Of a stretch of DNA of 32,931 nucleotides, positions 331-29,921 are shown in pieces. A program made the translations under genes and the position numbers. The stretch covers positions 1-32,931 of the forward strand of contig JAFYDR010000305.1 in NCBI GenBank assembly GCA_017544725.1, written 5' to 3'. The notes below the pieces were generated by a model. The model searched no databases, was not told the origin of the DNA, and saw only the letters and a program-made list of their open reading frames with translations. This DNA comes from Kiritimatiellia bacterium (GTDB lineage Bacteria > Verrucomicrobiota > Kiritimatiellia > RFP12 > UBA1067). The first letter of the stretch is position 1; the number at the start of each line of letters is the position of its first letter.

Positions 331-2007
331 TCACGGAACCGGGAAACGCGCCACTAGCTGCGAGACCTCGGCGTGTACTTTCCTCTGCAACTCTTCATTC
401 TCGACATCGCCCAGGATGTTGCAGATCCAGTTTCCAATCTGCTCCATCTCCGAAAGCCCCATGCCGCGCGTCGTGACGGAAGCGGTTCCGATTCGGATGC
501 CGGATGTGACGAACGGGCTGTTCTGGTCGAACGGAATGGTGTTCTTGTTGCAGATAATTCCCGCATTGTCCAGCGCCGCCGCCGCGACCTTGCCTGTCAA
601 ACCGCTCTTGGCGACATTCACCAGCAACAGATGGTTGTCCGTACCGCCAGACACCAAGTGGAAGCCCCGCCGCAGGAAGATGTCCGCCAACGCTTTGCAG
701 TTCTTCACCACGTTCGCCGCATACTCCTTGAACGCCGGTTGCAGCGCCTCGCGGAAGCAGACCGCCTTACCCGCAATGATGTTCTCCAACGGGCCGCCCT
801 GCATTCCCGGAAACACCGCCTTGTCCAATGCCTTCCCGTACTTCTCTTTGCACATCACCAAGCCGCCGCGCGGTCCGCGCAACGTCTTGTGTGTTGTCGT
901 TGTCACGAAGTCAGCATACGGCACCGGACTCGGATGAGCACCGCCCGCGACCAATCCCGCGATATGCGCCATATCGACCACGAAGATCGCGCCGACTTTG
1001 TCCGCAATCGCACGAAAACGTGCAAAGTCGATCGTACGCGGGTAAGCGCTGGCGCCCGCCAAAATCAACTGAGGTTTGACCTCCAGAGCCTGTTTCTCCA
1101 GCGCATCGTAGTCCAGCATCTCCGTCTCCGGGGAAACGCCGTAAGGCACAATGTTGTATAGTTTGCCGGAGAAATTCACTGGCGAACCGTGCGACAGGTG
1201 ACCGCCCTGATCCAGACTCATCGACAGGATCGTGTCGCCAGGATTCAACACGGAGAAATAGACTGCCATATTCGCCGAAGACCCGCAGTGCGGTTGCACA
1301 TTGACATGCTCTGCACCAAACAACTCCTTTGCACGTTCAATCGCCAGCGTCTCAACCGCATCGACAGGGAGGCATCCACTGTACCAACGATGCGCGGGAT
1401 ACCCTTCCGCATACTTGTTCATCAGCACGCTGCCGGACGCCATGCGCACCGCTTTCGACGACGTATTCTCAGAGGCGATCAGGTTGATCGTCGTATCCTC
1501 CTGCGCAATCTGGCCTTTGATCGCATCGTAGATTTCTCGATCGACCTCCGCCAGATACGCTACCTCCGAGACACGCGCTCCACGCTCCGCCTTCTCTAGA
1601 CGACGGACGTGCCGTTCCCCGTTCGAGAACGGCGTAGAAAGGAACGTCTCCGCAATCTCTACGGCGGTCTCTGCTGACAACGAGCCGGGAAGAGTCAACA
1701 CGTTCGCGTTGTTGTGCGAACGAGTCAACTCCGCCTTCTCCGCCGTGTCGCAAACCGCAGCACGGATTCCCGCAAAACGGTTCGCCGCGATCGACATACC
1801 GATACCCGTCTTGCAGACAAGAATCGCCATATCCGCACGGCCTTCGGTTACCGCTTGAGCAGCCGGAACCGCATAGTCAGGGTAGTCCACAGAGTTCTCG
1901 TCATCCGTCCCCAGGTCTTCCACCTGATCTCCGCGCCTACGCAAAAAATCCAAAATCGCGGCTTTCACAGCCAAGCCGCCATGGTCGCATCCAAGTATGA
2001 CTTTCAT
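331..2007 (-). CDS. Fusion of ribose-5-phosphate isomerase B and serine hydroxymethyltransferase
   Basis: This 558-residue protein has two complete enzymes in one chain. Residues 1-140 are RpiB: GCDHGG at 6-11, catalytic cysteine C65 in [10 protein letters not shown] (most RpiBs have CGTGIG), and SHNNANVL near 98. RpiB interconverts ribose-5-phosphate and ribulose-5-phosphate. Residues about 150-558 are SHMT (PLP enzyme, serine + THF to glycine + methylene-THF): LIASEN at 177-182, NKYAEGYP near 198, DMAH at 345-348 and the PLP lysine K374 in [14 protein letters not shown]. About 410 residues is normal for a whole SHMT, and no stop or frameshift separates the halves. The SHMT substrate loop reads HRWYSGC where most have K-R-Y-Y-G-G-C. 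The ATG follows GGAGAAAA. An NDT-like gene follows 8 bases downstream. Both motif sets look intact, so both activities are probably live. Confidence 0.93.
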
Positions 2008-2072: not shown

Positions 2073-2182
2073 GAATGGAATTCCAGCTATGGAGAAGCGC
2101 CGTTGCGAGGGCGCATCTGCGTATTTCACCCATTCCGTACACACGAGAGGATTTTGGAAACAACAGGAACAACTTGAAGACA

Positions 2183-2197
2183 GGCGGCAAAGCCGCC
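2183..2197. repeat. GGCGGC-type short hairpin
   Basis: Perfect 6-bp stem GGCGGC-AAA-GCCGCC. It is one of several hairpins with this core in the window (also 15669, 17648, 22363, 25476), here inside the MITE-like element. Confidence 0.7.
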
Positions 2198-2238
2198 AGC
2201 TGAGAAGCTGAAAAGCTGAGAGGCTAACAGAGAAGCGG

Positions 2239-2276
2239 GGCGGCAATGAAGAGAGAAAAATGAAGAATGAAGGATG
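2239..2276. repeat. Dispersed GGCGGCAATGAAGAATGAA-type intergenic repeat
   Basis: A 38-bp block that aligns with 15629-15666 in the same orientation with few mismatches. Both start GGCGGCAATGAAGA and continue with degenerate TGAAGAATGAA units. Related degenerate units occur at 15684-15708 and 29804-29833. It is non-coding; six-frame readings give only low-complexity peptides. Confidence 0.65.
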
Positions 2277-2537
2277 TCGCGTGTCGTTTGTTGCGTGTCA
2301 TCAAAAATATTCGAATGGGAGTGACGCGCTTCGTCGCATCCGTTGCGTGACGACGATGCCATGGTTGACGAAATCGAAAGTTATCCCCATGAACGTTCTC
2401 GCGCACGGTGAGAGCGAGTTAGCCCGCGCTCTAAAGACAAGTTGTTTTTTTAAGTTGTTTCTGTTGTTTTCATTTTCAAAAAACGACAGCGAAAAACACA
2501 GATGCGCCCGCCGTTGCGATGTTAGGCGCGCTTTTGC

Positions 2538-2566
2538 TTGATTCAGGATGATGATTTTGCTATGGT
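2538..2566 (+). promoter_or_regulatory. Candidate sigma70 promoter of the small protein-M16 peptidase unit
   Basis: TTGATT (2538-2543), 17-base spacer, TATGGT (2561-2566). It lies just outside the right direct repeat of the MITE-like element. Transcription would start near 2573 and leave a leader of about 138 bases before the ATG at 2711. Confidence 0.5.
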
Positions 2567-7069: not shown

Positions 7070-7182
7070 ATCGGCGATAATATCGCCGATAACAGAACAC
7101 ACAAACGGAGGGGGACCCGCCGACGCCGATAACAGAACGCGAAAACGGAGGGAGTTCTGTTGTCGCCGATATTATCGGCGAC
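7070..7182. repeat. REP/BIME-like palindrome cluster downstream of the RAYT gene
   Basis: Three units are visible. Unit 1 (7070-7098) is a perfect 10-bp palindrome, ATCGGCGATA-A-TATCGCCGAT, followed by AACAGAAC. Unit 2 (7125-7138) is a half copy, GCCGATAACAGAAC, 40 bp after the matching bases of unit 1; both are followed by AAACGGAGGG. Unit 3 (7154-7182) is inverted: GTTCTGTT and then a perfect palindrome GTCGCCGATA-T-TATCGGCGAC. Units 1 and 3 form a head-to-head pair, as in BIMEs. The cluster lies between the RAYT stop and the convergent acyltransferase stop, where it could also act as a bidirectional terminator or mRNA stabiliser. Confidence 0.85.
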
Positions 7183-15628: not shown

Positions 15629-15708
15629 GGCGGCAATGAAGAATGAAAAGTGAAGAATAAAGAATGGGGGCGGCGGAGCCGCCAATGACGAATGACGAGT
15701 GAAGAATG
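15629..15708. repeat. GGCGGCAATGAAGAATGAA-type repeat with GGCGGC hairpin
   Basis: 15629-15666 is the second copy of the block at 2239-2276. It is followed by a GGCGGC-GGA-GCCGCC hairpin (15669-15683) and further AATGACGAATGA / GAGTGAAGAATGAA units. It fills most of the 15568-15805 gap. After it, ATGTCGCGTGTC (15745-15756) repeats a motif also at 2274-2285. No gene is visible here. Confidence 0.65.
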
Positions 15709-15805
15709 AAAAAAAGGACATCAGTCGTGCCAGTCAAACGCGAAATGTCGCGTGTCATCGATAGCGATCGATTGCAATCGAACGGAGATGGGTACGCTTT
15801 TTCAG

Positions 15806-17599: not shown

Positions 17600-17645
17600 C
17601 AGCCTCTCAGCTTAACCAGCTTACCCGGCTTAACACGCTTACCCC
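17600..17645. repeat. AGCTTAAC-CAGCTTA-type short repeats
   Basis: Degenerate 9-11-bp units (CTCAGCTTAACCAGCTTA, GGCTTAACACGCTTA). Related strings lie at 29860-29899, at 21002-21030 and, inverted, at 2198-2227. Non-coding. Confidence 0.5.
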
Positions 17646-17647
17646 GC

Positions 17648-17664
17648 TGGCGGCGCAGCCGCCA
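17648..17664 (-). terminator. GGCGGC hairpin abutting the AAA+ ATPase stop
   Basis: TGGCGGC-GCA-GCCGCCA, a perfect 7-bp stem, starts directly after the stop codon of the tandem AAA+ gene. There is no T-run after it on the minus strand, so it may be a 3'-end stabiliser or a repeat rather than a true intrinsic terminator. Confidence 0.4.
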
Positions 17665-22387: not shown

Positions 22388-22434
22388 CTAAAACAAAATC
22401 GATGGCAACCGATCGTATTCGGTTGCCATCGATT
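22388..22434 (-). terminator. Intrinsic terminator for the pyrE operon (perfect 16-bp stem)
   Basis: Arms 22397-22412 (AATCGATGGCAACCGA) and 22419-22434 pair perfectly around the 6-base loop TCGTAT. On the minus strand the stem is followed by TTGTTTTA (22396-22389). It would stop transcripts coming from the GH20-like gene, and its hairpin may also end rtcB transcripts. The left end of MITE-like copy 2 is inserted against its right arm. Confidence 0.65.
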
Positions 22435-22435
22435 C

Positions 22436-22722
22436 GGACACATCTGCGTAATTCACCGTCGTCTTTTGAAAATGAAAACAACAGAAACAACTTAAAAAAC
22501 AACTTGTCTTTAGGGCGCGGGCTAACTCGCCGCGCTCCAATAGTTGATCCCATAAAAGCAACTGGGCAATGATACCAAATGATTATCGCGGTAAAGGCGA
22601 AGGAAAAGTGATGCGCGGACCGGTTGGTCCGCGTACCTCTTTCAGCTGTTGTATTCAGGTTGTTCCTGTTGTTTCCAAAATCCTCTCGTGCGCATGAGAT
22701 GGGTGAAAAACGCAGATGCGCC
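22436..22722. mobile_element. MITE-like inverted-repeat element, copy 2 (opposite orientation to copy 1)
   Basis: A 287-bp non-coding element. Its left module (22436-22540) matches the right module of copy 1, including GAAAACAACAGAAACAACTT, CAACTTGTCTTTAG and a GGGCTAACTCGC hairpin. Its right module (22645-22722), read on the minus strand, matches the left module of copy 1: GGCGCATCTGCG, ACGAGAGGATTTTGG, AACAACAGGAACAAC. The terminal repeat on the left is decayed (GGACACATCTGCG). Flanking CCATCGATTC (22426-22435) and CCATCGACTC (22723-22732) form a one-mismatch direct repeat. The interior differs from copy 1 and is shorter. It has no coding potential and lies between convergent rtcB and the GH20-like gene. 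Confidence 0.72.
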
Positions 22723-22813
22723 CCATCGACTCCACTTTCCGACAACAGAAAGTCCTGTCGATGGTGCTCTTCTCAAAACTCAAGGCTTCGAGCTCGAATC
22801 TGGCGGTAGCACC

Positions 22814-29587: not shown

Positions 29588-29727
29588 CTCTGTCCCCGTC
29601 CAATCGGCGGCATTTGATTGCGACCGACAGCTAGCGATTGGTTTACGACCGTACCGCAAAACATCGAATTCGCTGCCTATAACTTCGGGCCGCTTGAGGC
29701 GGCGGTGACGAGTGAAGAGAGAAATTT

Positions 29728-29764
29728 CACGCGGAGACGTGGAGGTTCGCATGAGGCCGCAGAG
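29728..29764. repeat. Second copy of the ACGCAGAG-type repeat
   Basis: CACGCGGAGACGTGGAGGTT, then CGCATGAGGCCGCAGAG: a diverged copy of 17477-17512 in the same orientation. It is preceded by GTGAAGAGAGAAA, part of the TGAAGAATGAA repeat family. Confidence 0.55.
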
Positions 29765-29777
29765 AATGCGGATGGGA

Positions 29778-29865
29778 AACGTTCTCGTTGCCTAGCTTCG
29801 CTCGGAATGAAGAATGAAAAATGACGAATGAAAGCGGGAGGGGCAACGTCCTCGTTGCCTAGCTT
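29778..29865. repeat. Direct repeat of AACGTTCTCGTTGCCTAGCTT
   Basis: A 21-bp sequence at 29778-29798 recurs at 29845-29865 with one change (TTC to TCC). Between them lies an AATGAAGAATGAA block. AGCTTAACACGCTTCACCAGCTTA continues to about 29884. Confidence 0.6.
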
Positions 29866-29921
29866 AACACGCTTCACCAGCTTATCATGCCTAACTGGCT
29901 GACGCGTTTCCCACCTCCTCG

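Follow-up and report, generated by a model that had tools for sequence, protein, structure and literature searches.

MITEs derived from bacterial insertion sequences (IS) are short, non-coding elements that are bounded by terminal inverted repeats (TIRs), occur in many copies with target duplications and have their TIR in common with an autonomous IS. In REP/REPIN systems with RAYT nucleases, palindromic non-coding repeats are tied to a single nuclease family.

The prokaryotic Mutator-like superfamily (p-MULT) includes the ISKra4, ISLre2 and TnGBS lineages, and its elements have inverted repeats of 18-39 bp and duplications of 8-9 bp (PMC3942029). ISLre2/TnGBS and some ISKra4-group elements insert 13-17 bp upstream of sigma-A/70 promoters (Guerillot et al. 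2014, PMC3942029), and a few ISKra4 elements carry passenger genes of unknown function (PMC3942029).

The two elements described here lie in a 32,931-bp stretch of DNA (the window) from a Kiritimatiellia bacterium (GCA_017544725.1, the home genome) and belong to a promoter-targeting MITE family of an ISKra4-like IS. We are confident that they are gene-less MITEs that use the transposase of a TIR-sharing IS in trans, insert upstream of promoters and have an interior derived from a GxxExxY element. The interest of the family lies in its fixed promoter geometry and in its connection with GxxExxY.

Two copies in opposite orientation

Copy 1 is a 401-bp MITE on the plus strand (2109..2509) with an exact 10-bp repeat, GCCGTTGCGA, on both sides (2099..2108 and 2510..2519). 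Copy 2 is a 288-bp MITE on the minus strand (22436..22723) with a 9-bp direct repeat, one position mismatched, on either side. The preliminary description had presented the second as a flipped copy of the first with the same A-to-B order, and the inverted repeats, the coordinates and an alignment of the two, in which the ends are near-identical and the middles unrelated, agree with this. The span that it gave for copy 2, 22426-22732, is a real feature, in which the element proper occupies 22436-22723 and the remainder is its duplications. The A and B end sequences it named are likewise present but internal, and the true ends are a TIR of about 22 bp, GGGCGCATCTGCGT[AA/TT]TTCACC, which it left unnamed and which is common to both sides of both copies. 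In copy 1, this TIR is found at 2109..2130 (A end, plus strand) and 2488..2509 (B end, minus strand). At its A end (22702..22723, minus strand), copy 2 has GGGCGCATCTGCGTTTTTCACC, which differs from the TIR of the autonomous IS described below, also 22 bp long, only at the AA/TT position; its B end (GGACACATCTGCGTAATTCACC) is at 22436..22457 on the plus strand.

Further inside copy 2, the A-side arm GGAAACAACAGGAACAACCTGAATACAAC (22648..22676, minus strand) pairs with the B-side arm (22474..22508, minus strand; GAAAACAACAGAAACAACTTAAAAAACAACTTGTC in plus-strand reading), and these are followed by inner hairpins A (CGCGGACCAACCGGTCCGCG, 22614..22633) and B (GCGCGGCGAGTTAGCCCGCGC, 22513..22538), both on the minus strand. 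A and B had been taken for separate modules; they are instead both inner arms of one palindrome or inverted repeat.

As first described, copy 2 abuts a terminator hairpin, a host terminator-like structure with a 17-bp stem (22396..22435, minus strand), and its direct repeat has a single mismatch (CATCGATTC/CATCGACTC, 8/9 identical). The left duplication CATCGATTC (22427..22435) falls within the terminator stem and the right one, CATCGACTC (22724..22732), in a second hairpin, CATCGAC...GTCGATG. Since both repeats overlap hairpin arms, the duplication of copy 2 is ambiguous and weak evidence when taken alone, and has to be judged together with the family.

Other repeats and one unusual gene were observed in the same stretch. 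Dispersed short-period repeats of the AATGAAGAATGAA, TGACGAGTGAAGA and GCTTAACCAGCTTACC types are present at 2239-2276, 15629-15715, 17603-17648 and 29706-29882, and also occur in the interior of copy 1 and around many MITEs genome-wide. A palindromic cluster at 7071-7181 has two 40-bp tandem copies within a 28-bp inverted repeat, TCGGCGATAATATCGCCGATAACAGAAC. At 331-2007 (minus strand), a single 558-aa ORF fuses a ribose/galactose isomerase (RpiB) domain with serine hydroxymethyltransferase.

The family in the home genome

With copy 2 as query, a search at the DNA level returned 50 matches in this genome, at 100% for the copy itself and 75-95% elsewhere. A 15-mer of the TIR, allowing at most one mismatch, has 170 matches in the genome (1 for the reversed control pattern), and a second TIR form has 95 (0 for the control). 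We located and paired the ends in fetched stretches of the home genome, whose assembly is 75% complete. All 64 inward-facing pairs consist of one A and one B end, with no A-A and no B-B pair, which together with the abundance of the TIR is far beyond chance. The 64 complete pairs are short, mostly 250-475 bp, without an intact gene, and carry the TIR at both ends. Traces of the family in this genome number at least about a hundred.

Target duplications were scored at a 5-point threshold and detected in 27 of 62 pairs, compared with 1% in a control that mixed left and right flanks from different copies; exact duplications are typically 8-10 bp and at most 13 bp long, and further 9-bp cases are found in relatives. 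Asymmetric ends that come in pairs, direct repeats beside them and interiors that vary are thus features of the family genome-wide, as had been supposed from the two copies alone. By interior, the elements divide into class I (284-299 bp, including copy 2), class II (about 262 bp), class III (about 325 bp) and several smaller or one-off classes, copy 1 among the latter; interiors differ across genera as well as within the home genome.

Whether A and B always pair had been raised as a check, and their occurring mostly alone had been named as the outcome that would speak against a family. In total, 128 ends are paired and 63 are not, 22 of the latter running into the end of a locus or contig and 41 being unpaired within the sequence examined, so that solo or truncated copies are the minority. 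These 41 ends are unexplained and count against our reading; they are also what could be said for A and B as independent repeat modules that are neighbours by chance. We give that view practically no credence, because all 64 pairs are heterotypic, inward-facing and within a narrow size range, and the paired flanks carry duplications.

One 2.8-kb A-to-B pair on contig C45 was considered as an autonomous copy and rejected, as it spans a 705-aa ORF resembling a host membrane protein; it probably represents two separate insertions. When the GTDB contig collection was scanned for exact patterns, a single chance-like match appeared, in a Prolixibacteraceae record.

A probable partner insertion sequence and the promoter geometry

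An autonomous IS with the same TIRs is present in relatives of the home genome. In G004, a TIR pair lies 1.8 kb apart around a 438-aa ORF, and in G036, from another genus, an ORF 93% identical to it lies between the same TIRs. In both genomes, each end of the IS matches the 22-bp consensus TIR perfectly (22/22 bp). The G036 copy has a 9-bp duplication, CCGCGTTTT, so that repeat and duplication lengths (22 and 9 bp) are within the p-MULT ranges of PMC3942029. The transposase matches Pfam UPF0236 and the models of ISKra4 (E 2.5e-43, 148.8 bits), ISLre2 (E 1.7e-13) and ISH6 (E 2.8e-10), the homology seen in p-MULT elements. We call the IS only ISKra4-like because 148.8 bits is below the curated NF033572 cut-off of 205; by these similarities, its product is a predicted ISKra4-like transposase of the prokaryotic Mutator-like superfamily. 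The IS carries neither the arms nor a GxxExxY gene.

The home assembly, which is 75% complete, yielded no transposase of the ISKra4-like kind and no other partner for the MITEs; such an enzyme has presumably been lost or is missing from the assembled part. A MITE need not have its partner in the same genome, because the source can have disappeared or have escaped assembly. In relatives, the TIR also occurs with other interiors. The same TIRs surround other armed interiors in G001 (L329-L333) and G019 (L334-L336), of the ACGCAAAGTCCGCGAAG and CCACAATTCCACATTG types.

Of 148 ends in the home genome, 47 have a sigma-70-like -35 box that begins exactly 27 bp outward of the TIR, namely 31 of 77 B ends (background 0.28 per position) and 16 of 71 A ends (background 0.19). 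An independent set from relatives, comprising flanks of the IS, of GxxExxY-type and of gene-less elements, gave the same distance in 42 of 155 flanks (background 0.5 per position). Both autonomous IS copies share this rare habit, with their -35 box at 27 bp, in TTGACG-17-TATACT and TTGTGG-17-TATAAT. Copy 1 has a promoter-like TTGATT-17-TATGGT beyond its B end, starting 28 bp from the TIR (2538..2566, plus strand). At copy 2, no promoter can be recognised where one would be expected; on its B side, TTGCCA stands at 27 bp without a -10 box. A fixed distance to promoters is thus found here as in p-MULT elements, at 27 bp rather than the published 13-17 bp. The difference is about one helical turn and may in part reflect the counting convention (18 bp without the 9-bp duplication).

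Because the TIR, the duplication and the target geometry are the same throughout, one kind of transposase appears to move the IS, the GxxExxY elements and the MITEs, for which the sequence comparisons argue strongly, and we infer that a transposase of the ISKra4-like kind moved the copies in the window. The transposase that positions the family at a fixed distance upstream of promoters is very probably a borrowed one. The MITE is a short, non-coding and non-autonomous element with TIRs of about 22 bp, subterminal inverted AACAAC arms and target duplications of 9-10 bp. In the proposed mechanism, it would be mobilised in trans by the transposase of the same-TIR IS, a putative ISKra4-like DDE enzyme of the prokaryotic Mutator-like group, which would insert the DNA upstream of sigma-70-type promoters so that the -35 box comes to lie 27 bp beyond the TIR. 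An abundant mobile element of this kind leaves the promoter intact and rebuilds the DNA directly upstream at many genes simultaneously, so that regulatory change by transposition becomes directly testable.

The fixed position upstream of promoters could also be expected of structured regulatory or terminator-type repeats under selection (REP/BIME-like, or an RNA element) that are not transposons. The element indeed folds as one long nested palindrome (DNA z = -5.8), and eight pairs within its conserved hairpins show double changes. However, the arms are nearly invariant and the covariation term is minimal (-0.17 kcal/mol), so that selection on RNA is unsupported; an RNA function was rejected on this ground, and an Rfam search of the window returned no match. 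The promoter, moreover, is found on either side of the elements (B only in 19, A only in 15, both in 6 and neither in 18), and target duplications exist together with an IS of the same TIR and habit. We thus judge regulatory repeats to be a very improbable explanation of the family, although some copies of the transposed MITEs could have been co-opted by the host.

GxxExxY elements and comparison with described systems

Four relatives (G019, G028, G004 and G032) carry a GxxExxY gene with a promoter, hairpins and AACAAC arms, all lying within these TIRs or what is left of them. The gene scores 124 and 119.3 bits against the GxxExxY family model (curated cut-off 35), and 115.6 and 109.4 against PF13366 (cut-off 22); the G032 copy is decayed, with an internal TGA. 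Many contig ends in G004 coincide across the first ~140 bp of the GxxExxY element, which suggests a recent multi-copy expansion. Deletion derivatives that retain the arms and part of the gene were detected in G015 (C58) and G004 (C177 and C28), the C177 derivative with a 9-bp duplication, GACCACCGT.

Since the arms are common to the MITEs and absent from the IS, the MITEs would derive from the GxxExxY-carrying element and not directly from the IS. Their arms and hairpins would be the outer parts of this longer element of related genera, which encodes a putative PD-(D/E)XK protein, and internal deletions and replacement of the middle may have produced the gene-less classes of the home genome. 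The gene-less forms there thus probably descend from the GxxExxY form by internal deletion. The earlier suggestion that the ends mobilise varied cargo was right in substance, as the interiors vary and include the GxxExxY gene in relatives; mobility itself, by contrast, would depend on the IS transposase.

A second GxxExxY subfamily has inverted ends of its own (AACTCCGAAGG...CCTTCGGAGTT type) and was seen once without a TIR of the 22-bp type (L149, G028:C223, 1-660) and once inside one, in G004 (L157, G004:C40, 389-1250).

Across the phylum, nearly every GxxExxY (PF13366) gene examined sits between inverted arms of repeated 8-9-bp motifs (e.g. CCACGAAACACACGAAAGGACACGAAG). The loci comprise L116-L145, L348-L375 and L394-L413, from relatives and the whole phylum. 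Median arm scores in two sets are near 28 and 22, whereas an identical geometry moved to other positions of the locus never scored above 15.6, and arm similarity increases with protein similarity (Spearman 0.34; 0 of 500 permutations). In twenty loci from genomes in one or two contigs, the units are mostly 430-560 bp. They show no obvious outer duplication across the phylum. This arm-flanked arrangement was less expected than the MITEs; in our literature search, no paper described GxxExxY genes as units flanked by arms or borne by transposons, and PMC3942029 was the only relevant source that came up for ISKra4 MITEs or GxxExxY elements.

An alternative is that the GxxExxY nuclease, and not the IS transposase, mobilises the elements of the family by recognising their AACAAC arms, with the window copies as its non-autonomous derivatives. 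It would account for four genera having the gene inside these arms and the family's TIRs, and for inverted arms that vary with the protein throughout the phylum. The IS, on the other hand, has the same TIRs, 9-bp duplication and 27-bp geometry with no arms and no GxxExxY gene, and G010 and G026 have TIR elements and no PF13366 gene that we could detect. The lack of an obvious outer duplication at arm-flanked units elsewhere also argues against it. GxxExxY was rejected as the mobiliser in the home genome, where neither of two clear PF13366 genes has convincing copies of the MITE TIRs. We therefore consider mobilisation by the nuclease very unlikely and retain the IS transposase.

A bolder reading, which we hold to be less likely than not, is that GxxExxY genes and their inverted 8-9-bp-motif arms form an undescribed, phylum-widespread class of selfish units, the arms of each being recognised by its own PD-(D/E)XK protein. 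On that view, a promoter-targeting IS would have taken up such units within its TIRs in several genera, and the elements of the window would be what remains of them. GxxExxY proteins, which are common, multi-copy and of unknown function, here gain an anatomy, inverted arms varying with the protein, and a testable role.

Compared with described systems, all the traits of MITEs from bacterial IS are present here, but only the TIR is common with the IS, and the interior is modular and would come from a GxxExxY-carrying element. The link of palindromic non-coding repeats with one nuclease family recalls REP/REPIN-RAYT systems; unlike these, the elements here are much longer and TIR-bounded, with 9-bp duplications and an IS partner with a DDE transposase. 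For the GxxExxY family itself (TIGR04256 / PF13366 PDDEXK_3), the likeness is that four related genera carry a gene of this family inside these arms and TIRs. The differences from p-MULT elements are the -35 box at 27 bp from the TIR (13-17 bp published), the relatives' transposase below the curated ISKra4 cut-off, and abundant forms that have either no gene at all or GxxExxY but no transposase. In the other respects, the family resembles the p-MULT lineages (PMC3942029), with a 22-bp TIR within 18-39 bp, a 9-bp duplication within 8-9 bp, a transposase similar to the ISKra4, ISLre2 and ISH6 models and insertion upstream of sigma-A/70 promoters.
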